Below are positions 5,077-64,000 of a stretch of DNA of 64,000 nucleotides, piece by piece. The stretch is from Nitrospira sp. (lineage in GTDB: Bacteria > Nitrospirota > Nitrospiria > Nitrospirales > UBA8639): assembly GCA_028819435.1 (NCBI GenBank), contig JAPPLK010000089.1, positions 1-64,000 of the forward strand, given 5' to 3'. Within the stretch, counting starts at the first letter, position 1. Every line of letters begins with the position of its first letter. Under the pieces are notes generated by a model, which saw only the letters and a program-made list of their open reading frames with translations, did no database searches and was not told where the DNA came from. The position numbers were made by a program, and so were the translations under genes.

Positions 5077-5225
5077 TTGCTAGGATATTCCTTATTGAGC
5101 CTAACGTCTTGGGTAACAGACTAGATGATAGAAGCATCTTGATTGACCCATTATTAGCTCTTCTTTTTATTCATTAACGTTGACAGCACCTTCGTTAGTT
5201 CTGCTTCATTTTGTCAGCATGCTTT

Positions 5226-54378: not shown

Positions 54379-55262
54379 GTCACCCGCAGAATACGAGGCA
54401 TGAGGAAGATGACAAGTTCGGTGTTTCGCTCGGCCTGATAGGTGCCGCTGAAGAACGTCCCAAGTACGGGAAGATCTCCCAGCAGGGGGATCTTCCGTTC
54501 GGTAGTAGTCAGTTGTTCCTGGATTAATCCGCCGATAATCACCAACTGGCCGTCACGGACACGGACCAGCCCTCCGGACTGTTTCACCTCCAAAACAGGC
54601 GCGGTGGAGCCATTCTGTGATTCAACGGTATCGGTCAGCCGGGTGATAATGGGCGAGACGTCCATCATGATCCAGCCGTCCTGGGAAATCTGCGGGGTCA
54701 CCGAGAGGACGAGCCCCGAGGTCACAGTCCGCACCTGCTCCGTAATAATGTTCCCGGTCCCTGCCGTCCCTTGCGTCGTCGTTGAGGTAAAAAAGGATTG
54801 ATCCGTCCCGACCTTGATCAACGCCGGCTGGTTGTTCAGCGTCAGAATCCGGGGTTGGGACACCACCTGCACGTCGCCCTGCTCCTGTAAGGCTTGGATG
54901 ACGCCTTCAAAATCACCGTCGTTAAAACTGAAAGCCGCAGTCGCCGCCCGTGCGACAAAGCCGCCGGCCGGCGCCGTGATGACGTTGTCCAGCTTGAAAC
55001 TGCCCTTGGGCGTACTGAGATCGATCCGGCTCCAATCCACTCCCAGGCTGTAATCGTCCCGGAGCGCGATTTCATAAATTCTGGCCTGGATCTCAACCTG
55101 GCGATAGAGAGAATTGCGGACGTTGACCAGAAACATCGCCACCTCTTGAACCCGTCTGTGCAAATCCGTCACTTGAATGGTGCCAGACAACCGGTTCACC
55201 ACGAAACGTCCTTCGTCTGAGAGGAGGGTACCGATCTGCGTTTCAATCTCTTCCCAAAATTA
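54375..55262 (-). pseudogene. 5'-truncated MshL/PulD-type secretin
   Basis: Secretin C-terminal domain 'VVSQPRILTLNNQPALIKVGTDQSFF...'; frame continues upstream of the first start codon (FWEEIETQIGTLLSDEGRFVV) to a TAA at 55262-55260. Confidence 0.75.
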
Positions 55263-55495
55263 CATGAGCCCTTTAAACGCCTGTATTTATAGGGGTTCGC
55301 GTTTGGCTCTACTGGTCAGTTATACTGATCGTTATACAGATTTGAGCGGGTCATTCGCGTCCAGTCCTGTTCCTTCCTCTGGCACTCTGCCTGTTCCCGT
55401 TACCAAGGAAGCCAGGCGCCCGCCCTCACGTGAAACGACCGAGCCCGCTGTGGTAAATTCCGTCGTCTTGCTCCGATACGTAGCGCAGGATCCGA

Positions 55496-58400
55496 ATGGC
55501 CATCCTTAGAATCGATATCGAAAGGGCCCTCGATGAGCTCATCTCTCAAGAGGAGTGGCTACGTTTTCAGAGGCTGGCGGTAATACTCGGCAGGCAGCGC
55601 TGGCCCAAACTCATAGCGCACCAGCCCAAGAAGGATTTCGGCCTTGATGCCTACGTGCCTGGGAGCGAGACGCCGGAAAAGGTCGGCAAGGGACTCGCCG
55701 CCTCGATCACAGCAACGCAGGAAAAAGTTTTTGGCGACGCAAAAAAGGCCAAGGAAAACTTTCCTGATCTAAAGACGCTTCTCTTCGTGACGCCAGCCAT
55801 AGTCGGCAACTCCAAGCGAAGGAAGTGGGGAGAGGCCATTAAGAGAGACTACGACCTCGAGCTGCTCATCATCGAGCGTGAGGATGTCATCTCGCTGATG
55901 ATGATGCCGGAGAACGCTCGGCTCTACAAAAACTTCCTCCACCTCAATATCGATGTCGAACCGGAGGTCGCAGTTCTCATTGATAGAACAAGGCATGCTG
56001 CCGACGCTGTCACTCAAGCATGGGCTAGGAAAACAAAAGGCCATCCGCTCATCGATCTCACAGCGGTGCAGCTCGACCTGAATGGTGCGGAGTCTGCCGA
56101 CGTGCTGTCGCTTGCGCAAATCGACCAGGCGCTGTCACAGAGCGGTCGTATCGTTCTCGAAGGGCCCGCCGGCCGCGGAAAGACCACGACGCTGATACAG
56201 CTCGCGCAGCGCGCGTGCAATGCCAGCACACCGCTCATAGTGGGACTTCCGTTGTGGATAAGGTCGCGCCAGAGCATTCTCGAATACATTGCCTGCATGC
56301 CTGTGTTCCAGGCCGAAGGTCTCACGTCAGCTGACCTCGCGCGGGTGCAGCAGACGGAACCTTTCCTGTTTTTGCTGAACGGCTGGAATGAAATTACGGA
56401 GTCGAGTTCCGTGCAGGCAAACGATGCACTCCGGGAACTCGAGCGTGACTTTCCGAGCGCGGGCATCCTTGTCGCGACCCGCACGCACCACTTGACCCCG
56501 CCGCTGCCCGGCGCATTGCGTCTGCGGTTGTTGCCCCTGGGACGCGGGCAGCGGGCAGCTTACTTGGCAGACCGCCTGGGCGCGAACGGTGCCGATCTCC
56601 GCGCCCTTGTCGAAACCGACCCGTCGCTTGATGGGCTGACTCGCACGCCGTTCATCCTGTCGGAAGTCGCTTCGCTGTTTGAAGCTGGCACCGAAATTCC
56701 CTCTACGAAATTCGGCGTCCTCGCCCAGGTTCTACGTCTGCACGAACAACGTGACGAGCACAGAAACTCGCTCCAAGCGGCACCGATCTTCGGCCAGCAA
56801 ATGGCCTACCTGAAGGCTCTCGCAAATAAGATGACCCGCCTCGGTGCGGTGGCATTGTCCGAGGCTGATGCGCGCGCCGTCGTTACCGCCGTCGCAGGAG
56901 AGCTTGTGGACCGTGGACAGATCGAGCGGGCGGGGGCACCGGAGGTCATCGCGACGCTCACAGCGCACCACGTTCTTGAGCGCATTGAGTATCCGGAAAC
57001 GGTGTTTCAATTCGACCATCAGCAGCTTCAGGAGTATTGCGCAGCGCTCGACGTCCGCGCGCCGCTTCTCGACCTGCGCGACGATGACTGCGACGCGATA
57101 GACCGTTTCACTGCCGACTACGTGAACGATTCGGCGTGGGCGGAACCGCTGCTCATGATTGCCGAGACTCTTGCTGAACAGACCGCCAATGCAGGAACCG
57201 ACAGGCGAAACATCCACGCCGGCAAGAAGCTGGTGGATATGGCGCTCATGGTTGATCTGGTATTCGCCGGTGAGCTTGCGCAGCTTTGCGGTCCGACCGT
57301 CTGGAATGAAGTCCGCGCGGCGGTTGGCGAGCGCTTCCGTGCCACGCACGCACTCCCCGACGGGAACTATCAGCAGTATGCCATCGCCGCCATGCTCGCA
57401 AGTGGCGCGGACGACTTCCACGACATCATCCTGCCGCTCTTGTCGGGACAAGACAGGCAAACGCGGCTTCGCACGTACCGGCTTTGGCCGGACATCCAGC
57501 TTTCGTCGCTCGGATCGAACTGGCGCGAGCACGTGCGCGGCTGGAACGAGGAGGCGCGAGCAGATTTCGTCTCTGAACTGCTTTATCATCGTGTCGATGG
57601 CGAGATTGCCTCCTTCGCTGTGGAGGACAACAGCGTCGCGGTGAAGAAGGCGGCTGTCTCCGGTCTCATGTGGACCGGGTCTGACGACGCGCTGACTCGT
57701 GTCCTCGAGTCGATGGATGCGCGCACTTTCGAAGAGGTTGCGCGCAAAAACCCCGATGATATGCCTCCGGCCCTCAGACCTAGCGCCATCGCGGCGATGT
57801 GGAGATTTATCGAGAGGACGACTGACCATCCGGCCCGCCTGCGAACCGCGCTTCATCTGATCGAACTCGGCGAGCCAGGCCTGGACGACGTCCTCAAGGA
57901 TGCGATAGCGGCGTTGACCGGCGGCGACATGCAGAACCTGGATTCGCACTACATCCTGCCGGCACTTAAATATCTGCATAAGTCCGATCCGGCTTGGACC
58001 AGCGAGTGGGTGGTAACCCAGATTGCCGAAGGCGTCCACTACGGGTACGAGGAATGGTTACCATTCGCGACCGTCATTCCCGATGACCTCGTGGAGACCT
58101 ACCTGTATCGCCTTGAGACCGAAGACCTCAAGCCCTCGCACCTTGAGGGCATGCTAGCTTTGATCGCTACGCGGGCGGATGCAGGGCTTGCGACGAGGTT
58201 GTTTAAGAAGATCCGCGAACTGCGATGCAGGGTGGATGCGGACCCCAGCCAGCAACATAAATTCGAGTGGCGAGTGATGAGACAGTTGAAGGCTGTGTTT
58301 CATCGTCTTCCCGGCGACCTCGCCGCGGCCGGCGTCCTCTCGTCCGTCAAGGTCGGCGACCCCCTCGACATCAAAGTCGCAGTTGACCTATTTAGCAGGG

Positions 58401-60001
58401 TCGCCAGGTCCGACCTGGAACCACTACGCGTCGGCGACGACGACCTGAAGGCACGCCTCCGCACATACCTGAAAAGCAGCGTCAAGCTCGTGCTCTGCCA
58501 GGATGACTTCAACGGCGAGGAAAAAGCCAACCTAGCATCGTCGATTGCACAGGTCGGAAAACCCGAAGATATGGTCGACCTAGTGCAACTCATCCGCGCC
58601 GACATCGAGAGGATGCACCGAGGCCGGGATGCGCGAGCGGCCGGCGACCGTGGACCCCGCGCCAATGGCGGCATCATGAGCTACGCCGGATGGCATATCG
58701 CCGCCGTCATGCACCTCGATCCGGCCAGCGCCGAGCGGGTGCTTATTGACCTGCTTCCCGAGCCGGAATACTTCTCCGACGTCGCGGTCGCCATGGCGTG
58801 CGATTTCTTGCCAAAATCGGAACGTTCCTTCGTTCGGAATCTACGATACGATTTGATGTGGGCCGCGCGCGACGACCGCTCCCCCCCGCCTGACGACGAC
58901 CAGCGGCGCACACGATTCGTCGCTGCACTCAATGCCGAGATCAAGCGCCTGCGAGAGCAGAACCAAGACGGGAAACCCGACGCCAGGCCTAAAGCGTGCG
59001 CAACGGCACTTGCCACAATCGACGGCCGCGGGTCGGCGGCAGCGGTGCTCGACGTAATTGCCATTCCCGCACAGTGCGAATACATCTGTCTCGACGCTGC
59101 TGAGCGTCTGTTGATGGCGGGTGTCATATTGCCCACGACCACCACATTCGCTCTGGTCGATTCCATCTTCGAGCGGACAGACGAGCGGATGCAGGATTCA
59201 GACAGATACCTTCTCCCCCGCGTCCTTGCACTCTGCCCCTTCGTTGACGACCCGGCGGCAGGGATCGCCAAGATGCGCGACGTACTCCGCAAGCGGCGGT
59301 TCTGGGGTTACGAACTGCGCGAACTGATCACCGCCCTCGGCGAGAGCCGATCGGATGCCGCCATTGACCTTCTGTACGAACTTGCCTCCGACGCGCAGAC
59401 GTTCGAACAATGCGCGGACAATGTCATCAACGCCGTCGCCATGCTCGATACGCCGCGTGCACGCGAACTGCTCCTGAGTTTTGTCGATCCGGACATAAGG
59501 ACCATCGCGCTGACGCACCGTTCTCACCGCATGGACGTGGTGATCGCGCGGCTCGGGGAACTCGCCCAGCGCAAGCCGGAAACTGCCGGGCGGTTGCAGA
59601 AATTGTGCGAACGCGATCTGCCGGAGATCAATCGGCATGTCCTCTCGAAAGTTATGGGCTGGTTCGGAACGCCCGAGGCCCTGATCGCCAATCTGAACCT
59701 GATCGATGACGCTAAACCCTCGGCGATTCCACGAGGCGTCTGGGACCAACTGAAAAGCGCTTTCGTCGAGCGACAACCCTACGGGCAAAATTCCAACACC
59801 TTTACGTTACACGCGCGAGCCTCAAACGAGTTACGCGCCCGGTTGTTCAGGATGGCACTCGAGGATAGTAAACGGCGAAAATCCGCTTTCATGCTTCTCG
59901 GACAAATCGAAGTATGGCGCCTTGAGCATGGCAGGCCGACGGACGAACCCCGTCACCCCAATCTCGCATCCGGTCAGTCTTGGCCGCCCATGGAGTTCTG
60001 A
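55496..60001 (+). CDS. NACHT-type STAND NTPase with N-terminal nuclease-like domain and HEAT-like C-terminus
   Basis: Walker A 'VLEGPAGRGKTTTLIQLAQRA', Walker B-like 'PFLFLLNGWNEI'; N-terminal 'KKDFGLDAYVPG...GLAASITATQEKVFGDAKKAKENFPDLKTLLFVTP' restriction-endonuclease-like; long helical repeat C-terminus. Confidence 0.75.
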   Translation: MAILRIDIERALDELISQEEWLRFQRLAVILGRQRWPKLIAHQPKKDFGLDAYVPGSETPEKVGKGLAASITATQEKVFGDAKKAKENFPDLKTLLFVTPAIVGNSKRRKWGEAIKRDYDLELLIIEREDVISLMMMPENARLYKNFLHLNIDVEPEVAVLIDRTRHAADAVTQAWARKTKGHPLIDLTAVQLDLNGAESADVLSLAQIDQALSQSGRIVLEGPAGRGKTTTLIQLAQRACNASTPLIVGLPLWIRSRQSILEYIACMPVFQAEGLTSADLARVQQTEPFLFLLNGWNEITESSSVQANDALRELERDFPSAGILVATRTHHLTPPLPGALRLRLLPLGRGQRAAYLADRLGANGADLRALVETDPSLDGLTRTPFILSEVASLFEAGTEIPSTKFGVLAQVLRLHEQRDEHRNSLQAAPIFGQQMAYLKALANKMTRLGAVALSEADARAVVTAVAGELVDRGQIERAGAPEVIATLTAHHVLERIEYPETVFQFDHQQLQEYCAALDVRAPLLDLRDDDCDAIDRFTADYVNDSAWAEPLLMIAETLAEQTANAGTDRRNIHAGKKLVDMALMVDLVFAGELAQLCGPTVWNEVRAAVGERFRATHALPDGNYQQYAIAAMLASGADDFHDIILPLLSGQDRQTRLRTYRLWPDIQLSSLGSNWREHVRGWNEEARADFVSELLYHRVDGEIASFAVEDNSVAVKKAAVSGLMWTGSDDALTRVLESMDARTFEEVARKNPDDMPPALRPSAIAAMWRFIERTTDHPARLRTALHLIELGEPGLDDVLKDAIAALTGGDMQNLDSHYILPALKYLHKSDPAWTSEWVVTQIAEGVHYGYEEWLPFATVIPDDLVETYLYRLETEDLKPSHLEGMLALIATRADAGLATRLFKKIRELRCRVDADPSQQHKFEWRVMRQLKAVFHRLPGDLAAAGVLSSVKVGDPLDIKVAVDLFSRVARSDLEPLRVGDDDLKARLRTYLKSSVKLVLCQDDFNGEEKANLASSIAQVGKPEDMVDLVQLIRADIERMHRGRDARAAGDRGPRANGGIMSYAGWHIAAVMHLDPASAERVLIDLLPEPEYFSDVAVAMACDFLPKSERSFVRNLRYDLMWAARDDRSPPPDDDQRRTRFVAALNAEIKRLREQNQDGKPDARPKACATALATIDGRGSAAAVLDVIAIPAQCEYICLDAAERLLMAGVILPTTTTFALVDSIFERTDERMQDSDRYLLPRVLALCPFVDDPAAGIAKMRDVLRKRRFWGYELRELITALGESRSDAAIDLLYELASDAQTFEQCADNVINAVAMLDTPRARELLLSFVDPDIRTIALTHRSHRMDVVIARLGELAQRKPETAGRLQKLCERDLPEINRHVLSKVMGWFGTPEALIANLNLIDDAKPSAIPRGVWDQLKSAFVERQPYGQNSNTFTLHARASNELRARLFRMALEDSKRRKSAFMLLGQIEVWRLEHGRPTDEPRHPNLASGQSWPPMEF

Positions 60002-60265
60002 CTTTCCTCCTTGACATAATGGGACAGTTACGCCCTTCGCTCACATCTCAGTAACGGATCCGCTCCGTCCGGCATCAGAAACTTTGTCGACTTGGAGCTT
60101 GTCCTTTCCAGTGATGATGTGTATGCGGCTGGAGTTCTATTTGTGGTAGCGGGGTGACTGGCCCACGTCCCCCGCGTCCAGCTAGCCGAAATCACCTACA
60201 TGCCCGCCTAGACGGGGTTTGTGAATCTGGGGCTCGCCCCCGAGCGGCGCTGAGGGAGAGCGTGC

Positions 60266-60295
60266 GGAGAACGTTTCTCTAGAGAAACATTCTCC
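60266..60295. repeat. 30-bp palindrome GGAGAACGTTTCTCTAGAGAAACATTCTCC
   Basis: Self-complementary except for one pair (G.T). Confidence 0.6.
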
Positions 60296-61538
60296 GACAG
60301 AACCTGACGCGGATGGCGTTCACTTGATCGGGCTGGCGCACTTGACGGATCTGGACGACGACGCGTCGTCGTTGGGTCTCGGCGATGAGGGGTTCCATGA
60401 TCATGAGTGATCAGGATTGGGCGATCCGGGTCCCAGGGGGCAGCGATGTAGGCGCAGGCATTAGTCGGCCTCGTTGTCTTTCATGATGGACCTGGAATGT
60501 GATGGAACGCTATGAGACTGTCTCGTGGCTTCTCTCCGACAAGCTGGCACTGGCCACACCAGGGAGGGAAGACAAGGGAATGAGGACCAATTAGCAGCGA
60601 TATGTCGAAACGCTGATTGCCGAGGAAGAACCCCTCTCCTCCCTCAATCTCACCCGTCGATCGGACTACACGAGATATCAAACGCATGGCGAGGAAGGCT
60701 TGGGAATCATGAGGATCGTGGCCTTCTGATGTTGGAACAACGCAGGACCAAGCGGCTGGCTCTTTGCTTGGAAGAAAGGGACCGTCAGGTGCACGGACCA
60801 GGCGTGGAGGTGCAGCAGCGACGCCAGGTTCATGTGATACGCGTGTCATCATGACCGGTGAGCGCATGACACCATGTCGCGAACAAGGAACTCATCACGC
60901 GCGCGTCTCATGCTCGCCACCCCGATGAAGGCCCTCGGTCATCGGACTGTGCTGGGTGTCACGAGCAGTCGCCCAACCTCGTGTTCTCAGGCCCCACACA
61001 AAGACAAGACCCTCTCGAAGGACCACAGCGGGCAACAGGCCCGACCACGAAAGAAGGCCGAGTACGCGACAAGCTGGTCGCATCACGTGGAGGAGGCGAG
61101 GCCGCGTCCCCCCGCCTCCACAACGAAAGGCCTCTCAAGCTGTGATCGGCCGCTGTGGGACCCGCCCGGCAAGAAGGCACGGTTTTCCGCGTCACGGGGA
61201 ACACCCTCCGCGATCCTCGAGTCACATCCTCAAGATGCAACCGGTCACCCTCCGGTTCGCTAGGAGGGGTCACTCCGACCAAGGTGTGAATGACCGCCGT
61301 CGTCCATTGAACCCATCGCCCTCCGTGAACTTGCCCCACCCGTTCCGTGTCTCGCCCCCTTCGAACGTCCCCAAAATACCGCGCAGTTTCTCAGGGAAAC
61401 TGGTTGGTTAAATCCTTCAAAGCGCGGTCGCCTTACGGGGCGCCAGGACAGGGCCACCTCACTCGCCATGTTCGCTGCCCCGTCCTGGTTCTCGCCCCGT
61501 GGCCGGGGTCGTGTCTCGCGCATTCTACCGCCCACTCT

Positions 61539-61572
61539 ACCCCTGACACGACCCATGTCGCGTGTCAGGGGT
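61539..61572. repeat. Perfect 12-bp hairpin ACCCCTGACACG...CGTGTCAGGGGT
   Basis: Arms 61539-61550 and 61561-61572, followed by palindrome ATTCACCGGTGAAT (61575-61588). Confidence 0.65.
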
Positions 61573-61655
61573 GAATTCACCGGTGAATGCGGCGGTACAT
61601 TGACCGGCTCCAACGTGTCGCCGGTCGCGGGACCGGCCCGGGTCCGGTCAGGGCC

Positions 61656-61952
61656 GGGCGCCGGGAGCGCCGGCACCCGGCAGAGGCTCCGCCTCTTTGC
61701 CCAACGCGCCGCTGGACGCGGCTTTTTGGCCAATTCACCGTCGGGACCTGGGAGCGCCAGGTCCCGACCAGGGGCGCCGCCCCTCTGGCACCACACCCCC
61801 CGCTGGACGCGGGGGAAGTGGGCCATTCACCCCGCTGCGCGGTCCCGGCTGTTGCGAGGGGTCGCCAGCCGTGACCAACCCCCGGAGAGGTTGCGCTACG
61901 CTCCACCTCCCGCCGCTGGACGCGGCTTGAGTTCCAGGGGTTGGTCACGGCT
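61656..61952. ncRNA. Candidate structured element: repeated hairpin cassettes (stem-variable, loop-conserved)
   Basis: Hairpins with loop GAGCG (61657 and 61741), loop TGGAC (61708-61722, 61799-61813, 61912-61926) and the recurrent ATTCACC boundary; 16-bp inverted repeat 61867-61882/61937-61952. Confidence 0.45.
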
Positions 61953-62852
61953 CGCTCCGGCTGCACACGTTGGCGCTCAGTTTCCCGCATTTTGGGGGCG
62001 CGTTATTGCACTTTTTTGACGTGTGTGCGCGAGCCGGGACCGCGCAGCAGCCCAACCCGTGAGGCGTCGCTGGGGCTCGGCCTCCCGTCGCCTCCGCCTA
62101 GGGGCCGAGTCGTTGGTCTTCCGGTCGCCCGTCACCTCGTCTGGGGCCGATGGTGTCGGGCTCGTTCACGTCGCATCTGTCGATCCACGTGAACCGCACC
62201 GGCGGCCGGTTCGCTGGGGCTCACCGGACCGCCTGCCTCGATTTGGGCATCGAGTCTGCGCCGCGGGCCAGGTTGGCGAGAACGACCTGGATCGTCGCCG
62301 TCAACAATCGGGGATCCTTCACAGAAGTCAGAAACTCGCTGACCCCGTGGCCTAGTTTTTGGGGGAGGACTACTCGTATGGAAGCCCTCCCATCGCTCCA
62401 GGGACCACGAACTACTCTTCCGACGGTTCAGCAACTTAGCAATAAGGATCCAAACGACGGACCCAAGCGAGAAGTCTTATCTGATATGGATTCGAGACCG
62501 TCTTCTGATCGAAGCAGATGAGTCGCCCGTTTATTGTGCGCTGGAAGCGGATTGTGATAATGAAGTCAGGCGTGCGTGGGGACGAGACAAGGACGTGGTT
62601 CACATCGGATTCTGGTACCGACTGACGATGAATCTCTTACGACACGCTGAAACGGAATTCAAAACCGTTGCCTCTGCTTCCTGATCGCTTCATTCAGTTC
62701 CCAGCCTCACACTCTTAACTCTCATTCCCGTTGTAAAGTAAATTTTTCACCGAAAACGGTTGACTTTCGTTCGATCGTGATTATCTTGTCAGTCGAGTCG
62801 TCCCATGACCGTTACGCGCCCTTCACCTAAACTATCGAGAGGAGGATGTCGA

Positions 62853-63083
62853 ATGCCAAATCCGAAGAATTTCTGGACTCAGCAACGTCAGGACGGGAAG
62901 TGGGAATCGAAACGGGAAGGGGCTGACCGCCCTTCCAAGGTGACCGACACGCAAGCCGAGGCGTGGAAATACTCCAAGGAACAAGCCAAAGATGAGAGAG
63001 GCGAAGCCTACCTCAAAGGACGGGATGGACTGATCCGCGAGCGAAACACGTATGGCAAGGACCCGCGGTCAATTCCAGGATAG
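62853..63083 (+). CDS. DUF2188-like small protein
   Basis: 'DGKWESKREGADRPSKVTDTQAEAWKYSKEQAKDERGEAYLKGRDGLIRERNTYGKDP' with GAGGAGG SD before MPNPKNF. Confidence 0.75.
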   Translation: MPNPKNFWTQQRQDGKWESKREGADRPSKVTDTQAEAWKYSKEQAKDERGEAYLKGRDGLIRERNTYGKDPRSIPG

Positions 63084-63223
63084 AATCGGCGGGCGGAAGA
63101 GGGCTCCTGGTTCTCCTGCCATCCCTCTTCCGCTCCCTTCTGGGCCATGCCGGGGAAGCGACTCACATATAAGGATTGACGGGAAATTAAAACCCGCGTT
63201 GTTAGTTGAGAGGAGGATTTACA

Positions 63224-63499
63224 ATGAGTCAATCGTTCGCCATTCAAAGAGGTTTTTATAGAATTGTCTCCATCTCCTACGAACAGATGGCATGTAAAGG
63301 CTTCCAGTCAGGCCAAGTGGCGATCACAGGCCTTTCGTGTATCGTTGAACATGCCCTTGATGAACACGGACCTCGGACCCAAAAACATTTGACGCTTGGC
63401 CCGATCCCGTTCGTGTATTACTGGGAGGAGGCGGTAAATGACGAAGTCCGTTGGAGACTATCGGATCGGCTCGATCAAGAACAGGGGGTACGGAATTGA
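63224..63499 (+). CDS. Small hypothetical protein
   Basis: GAGAGGAGGATTTACAATG start context; 91 aa. Confidence 0.5.
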   Translation: MSQSFAIQRGFYRIVSISYEQMACKGFQSGQVAITGLSCIVEHALDEHGPRTQKHLTLGPIPFVYYWEEAVNDEVRWRLSDRLDQEQGVRN

Positions 63500-63668
63500 C
63501 CGCGAAGGGGTAACGCGGTAGGATACTCACCGTCGCTTGGGATCGTCTGTGTCTCCGCCAGGGTCTACCGACGATCCCGGATGACATTTTGAAAAATGCC
63601 TCTCAAGAGGAGGCTTTCGTGCGTCCTAACAAAAACCTAATGGCCGGGCAGCCAGGAAGGAGTTCGTC

Positions 63669-63854
63669 ATGGACTTTCGCCATTATGAGGAAACCTGTGC
63701 CGACTGTCAACTTGTTAATGATTTGAAAAAAGTGTTTGACGTTCTATCTGGTCTGCATCTAGGGGTCCCGCATTGGTTCTTCTATGACGACGATGCCTTC
63801 GTTGGCTGGATGCCCCAATGCCGAATTTTACAAGTTTTAAGACAACAAGCATGA
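63669..63854 (+). CDS. Small hypothetical protein
   Basis: AAGGAG SD, 61 aa MDFRHYEETCADCQLVND... Confidence 0.4.
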   Translation: MDFRHYEETCADCQLVNDLKKVFDVLSGLHLGVPHWFFYDDDAFVGWMPQCRILQVLRQQA

Positions 63855-63856
63855 GG

Positions 63857-64000
63857 CTAGCGGGGGTGGCGTTTCCGCCACTCCTCCGGCATGATAAACG
63901 CACCTACCCAAATGCCCCGTTTCTCCTCTCGCGCCTCTTCTTCTTCCGGTATGTACGCCTTGGAATGCTTGCGATATGCCACGGCATAGCCATTCACCAC
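63857..64000 (-). CDS. C-terminus of a thermonuclease (SNase-like) family protein, runs off the window
   Basis: Minus-strand frame reads VVNGYAVAYRKHSKAYIPEEEEAREEKRGIWVGAFIMPEEWRKRHPR*, the SNase C-terminal pattern; absent from the ORF track because the start lies outside. Confidence 0.75.
   Translation of the reverse strand: MVNGYAVAYRKHSKAYIPEEEEAREEKRGIWVGAFIMPEEWRKRHPR

Follow-up and report, generated by a model that had tools for sequence, protein, structure and literature searches.

The window, a stretch of 64,000 nucleotides, contains a non-coding element of ~1.0–1.1 kb (about 61,264–62,350) with about a dozen hairpins. Its stems covary among related copies, and it lies in an integrative island whose empty site is present in sister species. 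The best explanation, adopted here tentatively, is a cis-acting role in integrative and probably mobilizable islands of defence genes, in which the element would act as folded single-stranded DNA.

Architecture and covariation of the element

Homology with related loci, determined by blastn and by alignment of the copies and their flanks, covers ~61,264–62,350 (Table 1). An earlier note on this DNA had described tandem hairpin cassettes at 61,539–61,952; the cassettes are real, but this interval is only the middle of an element about 2.5 times longer. The hairpins that it reported were found again: GAGCG-loop hairpins with differing stems at about 61,652–61,681 and 61,740–61,768, the pairs GAGGC..GCCTC and GGGGC..GCCCC of the second hairpin, TGGAC-loop hairpins at about 61,704–61,722 and 61,795–61,813 with a third at 61,908–61,926, and the ATTCACC repeats. 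The two cassettes appear to have arisen by tandem duplication of a single module, and one other copy (L027) has three. The long-range helix comprises 17 bp in the window, and the other copies retain an 11-bp core of it that shows a switch from T-A to G-C. Comparison of the 3' ends of the copies showed that the hairpin array ends sharply at ..GAGTCTGCGCC. A coding reading of the optional 3' block, in the frame ending ..GADSxPKSRQA, was rejected because the open frames are short, interrupted, and different between copies.

Table 1. Coordinates of the element, its parts, and its surroundings in the window
Feature	Position	Strand	Evidence or remarks
Island part within the window	55,260–64,000	.	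empty site in six sister species, overlap TTCCCAAAAyTT of about 10 bp
NACHT/STAND-type protein, 1501 aa, island cargo	55,496–60,001	+	PF22726, PF05729
Whole non-coding multi-hairpin element	61,264–62,350	.	blastn of copies and flanks; no Pfam match in overlapping ORFs
Core common to most copies	about 61,376–62,262		flanked by optional 5' block (61,264–61,376) and optional 3' block (62,265–62,350)
5' block, palindrome cagtttctc(tagag)aaactg	61,366–61,420	.	alignment; different palindrome here in some copies
Hairpin 0, ACCCCTGACACG / CGTGTCAGGGGT	61,539–61,572	.	inverted repeat I3
Cassette 1: GAGCG-loop hairpin, GAGGC hairpin, nested TGGAC-loop hairpin, ATTCACC	61,651–61,738	.	alignment A1 and pair counts
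Cassette 2: three hairpins as in cassette 1, stems differ	61,739–61,830	.	alignment A1 and pair counts
Long-range helix 61,834–61,850 / 62,032–62,048 around the next hairpin	61,834–62,048	.	inverted repeat, 17 nt, 100%
Long stem 61,864–61,886 / 61,933–61,955 around two hairpins, one of them the third TGGAC loop	61,864–61,955	.	23 nt, 91%
Optional insert, ~75 bp	61,959–62,032	.	in the window copy, L021, L024, L032, and L046; missing from most others
3' hairpin array: three-way junction with CTGGGG loops, GTTCACG..CGTGAAC hairpin	62,045–62,262	.	alignment A2 and pair counts
Optional 3' block T	62,265–62,350	.	3'-end comparison

Three minor repeats were noted in passing. A 35-bp inverted copy (94%) of 61,802–61,836 lies at 60,148–60,182, about 1.6 kb upstream of the element. 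A separate piece of the window (60,591–60,859), which is not part of the hairpin element, is repeated in G013:C24 and G006:C92. Finally, a 12-bp unit (atttacccctgt) forms a tandem array near 5,155–5,232 of L023, within the 5' part of an element copy.

The element is the densest hairpin window in the 95 kb around it (mean 1.58). It has 10 perfect hairpins with stems of at least 6, compared with 2.4 in shuffles, and its folding z-score is −7.7 as DNA and −11.1 as minus-strand RNA. Among the 12–15 aligned copies, both the covariation score and the number of paired cells lie above all 500 shuffles and every slid control, with 94–97% of cells pairing in the two alignments versus 34–54% in the slid controls. 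In A1 (12 copies), 97.3% of cells are paired, compared with 90.1% in shuffles and 42–54% after sliding, and both-side changes occur in 34 cells versus 13 in shuffles. The corresponding values for A2 (15 copies) are 94.3%, 88.2%, and 35–45%, with both-side changes in 13 pairs versus 7.5. Selection on structure, as the earlier note had proposed, is thus supported by compensatory stem changes among homologues. The stem alleles of one hairpin, for instance, include GCATC..GATGC, GGCTC..GAGCC, GGATC..GATCC, and GAAGC..GCTTC, and the TGGAC loop sits on either CCGC/GCGG or CGTT/AACG stems.

While stems vary, several particular loops, namely GGGAGCGCC, TGGAC, and CTGGGG, vary little or not at all in A1 and A2, and the linker motifs TTCACC and GGGCCATTCACCCCGCT are strongly conserved. 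Averaged over all hairpin-loop columns, loop variability (0.15–0.18) is about equal to that of stems (0.12–0.14), so that the case for conserved loops is built on those particular loops and not on the loop-column average. Since the stems vary and several loops do not, the stems do not behave as ordinary double-stranded half-sites, and recognition of the operator type is unlikely. An RNA that binds CsrA/RsmA through GGA loops was also considered, and was rejected because these loops vary to GAA and GCA.

Integrative islands as carriers

The window copy sits in a 26.9-kb island (contig 55,260–82,170). In six sister species, the sequences at 55,259 and 82,171 directly adjoin each other, with ~10 bp overlapping, and the 26.9 kb in between is therefore an insertion. 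It interrupts in the middle, at the core TTCCCAAAAyTT, a gene of about 540–550 codons that is uninterrupted in sister species and has a secretin-like end; its sequence and a weak STN match suggest that its product may be secretin-like. A tyrosine integrase is encoded at 80,777–81,976, adjoining one island end. With a clean empty site, a short direct repeat, and an end-adjoining integrase, the carrier is an integrative island. Besides the NACHT/STAND-type protein, its cargo includes defence genes, for Dsr1 and a type II methyltransferase, and a GmrSD C-terminal domain.

The same island encodes a putative MobC-family replication-relaxation protein (L119:15047–15835), which is a relaxase candidate whose match (E 3.7e-15) reaches 55.9 bits versus a 200-bit cut-off and lies below the curated cut-offs of NCBIfam and Pfam. 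PF13814 has been counted within the MobC relaxase superfamily (PMC5357655). MobC/Replic_Relax-like homologues were detected in L030, G013:C32 (split), and G006:C42 (fragment), and a relaxase-like gene is near only 4 of about 16 element copies, the window island included. An oriT is usually located near its relaxase. The distance of about 17 kb between the element and the relaxase-like gene in the window island argues against the element simply being the oriT of that gene. Separately, about 580 bp between the relaxase-like and integrase genes (contig C61 80,135–80,713) are 85–90% conserved in three other islands, and this segment is a candidate oriT or small gene.

Other copies are located in comparable islands. 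Genome G006 has a second island, about 9 kb long (L121 4,783–13,797, G006:C33), that interrupts an M28 peptidase gene found intact in G011. Its integrase lies beside one end and the element 0.6 kb from the other, and among its cargo are ankyrin-repeat and REase-ARP proteins. Abi, Mrr, HsdM, and DNA methylase genes are found near further copies. Integrases of the same family occur within 0–18 kb of most copies whose flanks are long enough, and directly abut the element in L046; several copy-bearing contigs show no integrase. The integrase is 3' of the element in nine contigs, on the opposite strand every time and 0–18 kb away, and 5' of it in three. In G006, 5 of the 7 element contigs are among the approximately 10 integrase contigs of 120 (p about 3e-5, by a hand calculation with contigs unweighted by size). 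These integrases match Phage_integrase with Arm-DNA-bind_3 / PRK09692 and are of the P4 type, while the XerA/integron model is matched only at 2e-4. The element is therefore either a non-coding part that such islands have in common or one of their regular passengers. Searches of the available flanks for tRNA-end direct repeats acting as attR beside the element found none, and no long self-repeat occurs consistently as a common island end. Repeats near the integrase of G005 turned out to be ordinary dispersed palindromes, unrelated to the element.

A DNA search detected related copies in 7 of the 14 genomes of one Nitrospirota genus, which, to judge from isolate names, is sponge-associated, and in none of 133 sampled genomes from other genera of the order. 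The earlier note had advised a covariance search in relatives. Two covariance models, built from the cassette region (61,651–61,800) and the 3' array (62,045–62,200), were run over 147 genomes of the order, and their matches were confined to the genus, with at least 7 copies in one genome and at least 4 in another. Genome G006 holds the most copies. Contigs of metagenome-assembled genomes (MAGs) often end within the element, and the copy numbers are minima because assemblies break in this repeat. The match in the single-contig genome G011 is a deletion derivative lacking the core. Two further copies lie in contigs assigned to Binatia and Bryobacterales bins (L041 and L046), which are likely mis-binned, since the L046 integrase is 84% identical to one from the genus and the L041 MAG series also holds a Nitrospirales bin. 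Copy identity within a genome (0.86) is hardly higher than between species (0.83), as expected of moving DNA, and the tree of copies is without resolution.

Folded DNA or RNA

Whether the hairpins act as RNA or as DNA was addressed by passing RNase P of the same genus through the same pipeline, a control that is thin in that it represents a single RNA family. The two sets of alignments have similar mean identity (0.84 for the element and 0.88 for RNase P). G.U pairs make up 1.1–2.9% of the paired cells of the element on the plus strand and 2.2–6.0% on the minus strand (up to 6% in one block), versus 10% for RNase P on its own strand. Both-side changes outnumber one-side changes 116 to 39 (3:1) on the plus strand of the element, compared with 40 to 101 (1:2.5) in RNase P, and about 85–94% of the pairs are common to the predicted structures of both strands, versus about half in RNase P. 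The scarcity of G.U and the shared pairs indicate Watson-Crick pairing without strong strand preference, as expected of DNA hairpins, and the element accordingly looks more like folded DNA than RNA. Alternatively, G.U pairs could be scarce because copies swap entire hairpin alleles or because highly stable, GC-rich stems are selected for. Comparison of G.U content with an RNA from the same genomes can serve as a simple, general way to tell covarying hairpins that act as RNA from those that act as DNA.

The main competitor is a large structured non-coding RNA that the islands would encode, more likely from the minus strand, with a role in regulation, in mobilization, or as a defence component. 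Covariation together with conserved loops would suit such an RNA, and the minus strand folds somewhat better, being the more stable of the two in each of the three blocks, with the z-score of −11.1 given above. In the long-range helix, moreover, A.C mismatches on the plus strand, which correspond to G.U on the minus strand, outnumber G.T. Large ornate RNAs such as GOLLD, ROOL, OLE, and HEARO are likewise long, heavily paired, and non-coding, and are often linked to mobile DNA; the element, by contrast, matches no Rfam model, and its pairing lacks the usual share of G.U. There is also a precedent in SGI1, where transfer requires the sgm-sRNA, which comes from the 3' end of a primary RNA and whose gene lies between mpsA and oriT (PMC9299015). 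The likeness, drawn from description and not from sequence, is that of a non-coding determinant encoded by an island. Against an RNA speak the G.U content far below that of RNase P, the almost equal folding of the two strands, a terminator-like hairpin followed by T5 inside the element on the plus strand, and the search for a promoter of an element transcript, which found no convincing one. Rfam gave no match in the window at the gathering score and none at relaxed thresholds (best E 0.44 in 61.0–62.6 kb). On this balance, an island RNA is considered unlikely. The earlier proposal of an RNA or a mobile stem-loop element thus holds better in its second part, since the copies travel in integrative islands, than in its first, which the scarce G.U and the strand symmetry weaken. 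Neither of the two outcomes that the earlier note had said would count against its proposal, a lack of covariation across homologues or a match with a described repeat family, was obtained: covariation was found, no Rfam family appeared at threshold, searches of phage and plasmid records gave no match to the element, and a conserved 21-mer of the element had none in viral contigs.

A proposed cis-acting region and its alternatives

If the element acts as single-stranded DNA, the following course can be envisaged. Once the island becomes single-stranded, the strand would fold as a chain of hairpins, and a protein would read the conserved loops (GGGAGCGCC, TGGAC, and CTGGGG), so that the stems would merely need to pair. 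The step served would most likely belong to the cycle by which the excised island is replicated or transferred, such as the start of the complementary strand or the assembly of a relaxosome, and the trans factors could be supplied by the island, a helper element, or the host.

The likeness to named systems is by function only; integrative island, for the carrier, is the sole class that applies in full. REP/BIME sequences and REPINs with their RAYT transposases are multi-copy imperfect palindromes, and they are recognised as folded single-stranded DNA, with loops contributing (PMC8266576). The element, too, is multi-copy and contains imperfect palindromes, but it has a multi-branched body of about 1 kb, lacks stand-alone hairpins, and resides in islands. 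Its hairpins are not dispersed as short palindromes: CCGCTGGACGCGGC gives 14 matches in 14 genomes, all in element copies, and PF01797 (Y1 transposase) has no match in G006, the copy-richest genome, and weak matches in 5 of the 14. A REP/RAYT assignment was therefore rejected. Integron attC sites are also non-coding DNA beside cargo genes in which the folded single strand outweighs sequence; the element is far longer, with a dozen hairpins, and the associated integrases are not of the IntI type but P4-type enzymes with an arm-binding domain. The 62,045 junction is closed by GCCCAAC..GTTGGGC or GACCAAC..GTTGGTC, which, compared by eye, is often off the attC consensus RYYYAAC / GTTRRRY. With P4-type islands and integrative mobilizable elements, the carriers share an end-adjoining tyrosine integrase, intragenic or tRNA-linked sites, variable defence cargo, and possibly a MobC-type relaxase. 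In the literature searched, no conserved 1-kb multi-hairpin region common to islands of different cargo was found. The element might represent a novel type of cis-acting sequence, in which ~1 kb of single-stranded DNA forms a chain of hairpins with a fixed set of loop codes and freely covarying Watson-Crick stems, and which defence islands in sponge symbionts require for their mobility, although this stronger claim is rather doubtful. For many islands with bacterial defence genes, we know of no established way between cells. If the claim is true, a folded-DNA region common to islands of different cargo would provide a handle on the mobility machinery and an island marker.

A non-autonomous mobile repeat, that is, a MITE-like cluster of hairpins that prefers islands and whose structure serves only its own transposition, is likewise considered unlikely. 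At least 7 copies in one genome, mosaic ends, and decayed copies such as that of G011, which lacks the core, would be expected of it. In L034:5045–6259, moreover, 1.2 kb carrying half of the element is inserted abruptly into a dispersed repeat found genus-wide, with a short imperfect duplication, GGCA[AG]AA. This insertion, however, also carries a two-gene unit (one gene encoding DUF2283), and looks like a small decayed island. The copies lack the common terminal repeat of a MITE or insertion sequence derivative, their ends differ and the 5' end is not fixed, stand-alone hairpin units are absent, and no matching transposase was identified. Least probable is that the arms stay complementary through mutation (template switching between them) or because copies swap modules, with no present function: both-side changes with few intermediates, arriving as whole hairpin alleles, the many decayed copies, and an average loop divergence not below that of stems are in its favour, but arm correction alone would not keep several loops invariant across ~84%-identical copies or conserve the linkers TTCACC and GGGCCATTCACCCCGCT.

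A repeat of ~147 bp was noticed beyond the window island (L120:4270–4417, contig C61 87,270–87,418). It is dispersed in dozens of places across the searched genomes of the genus and has terminal inverted repeats of about 17 bp (AAGGAACCTCTGATTTA..), with ends that are presumably IS5-like, and it looks like a MITE.
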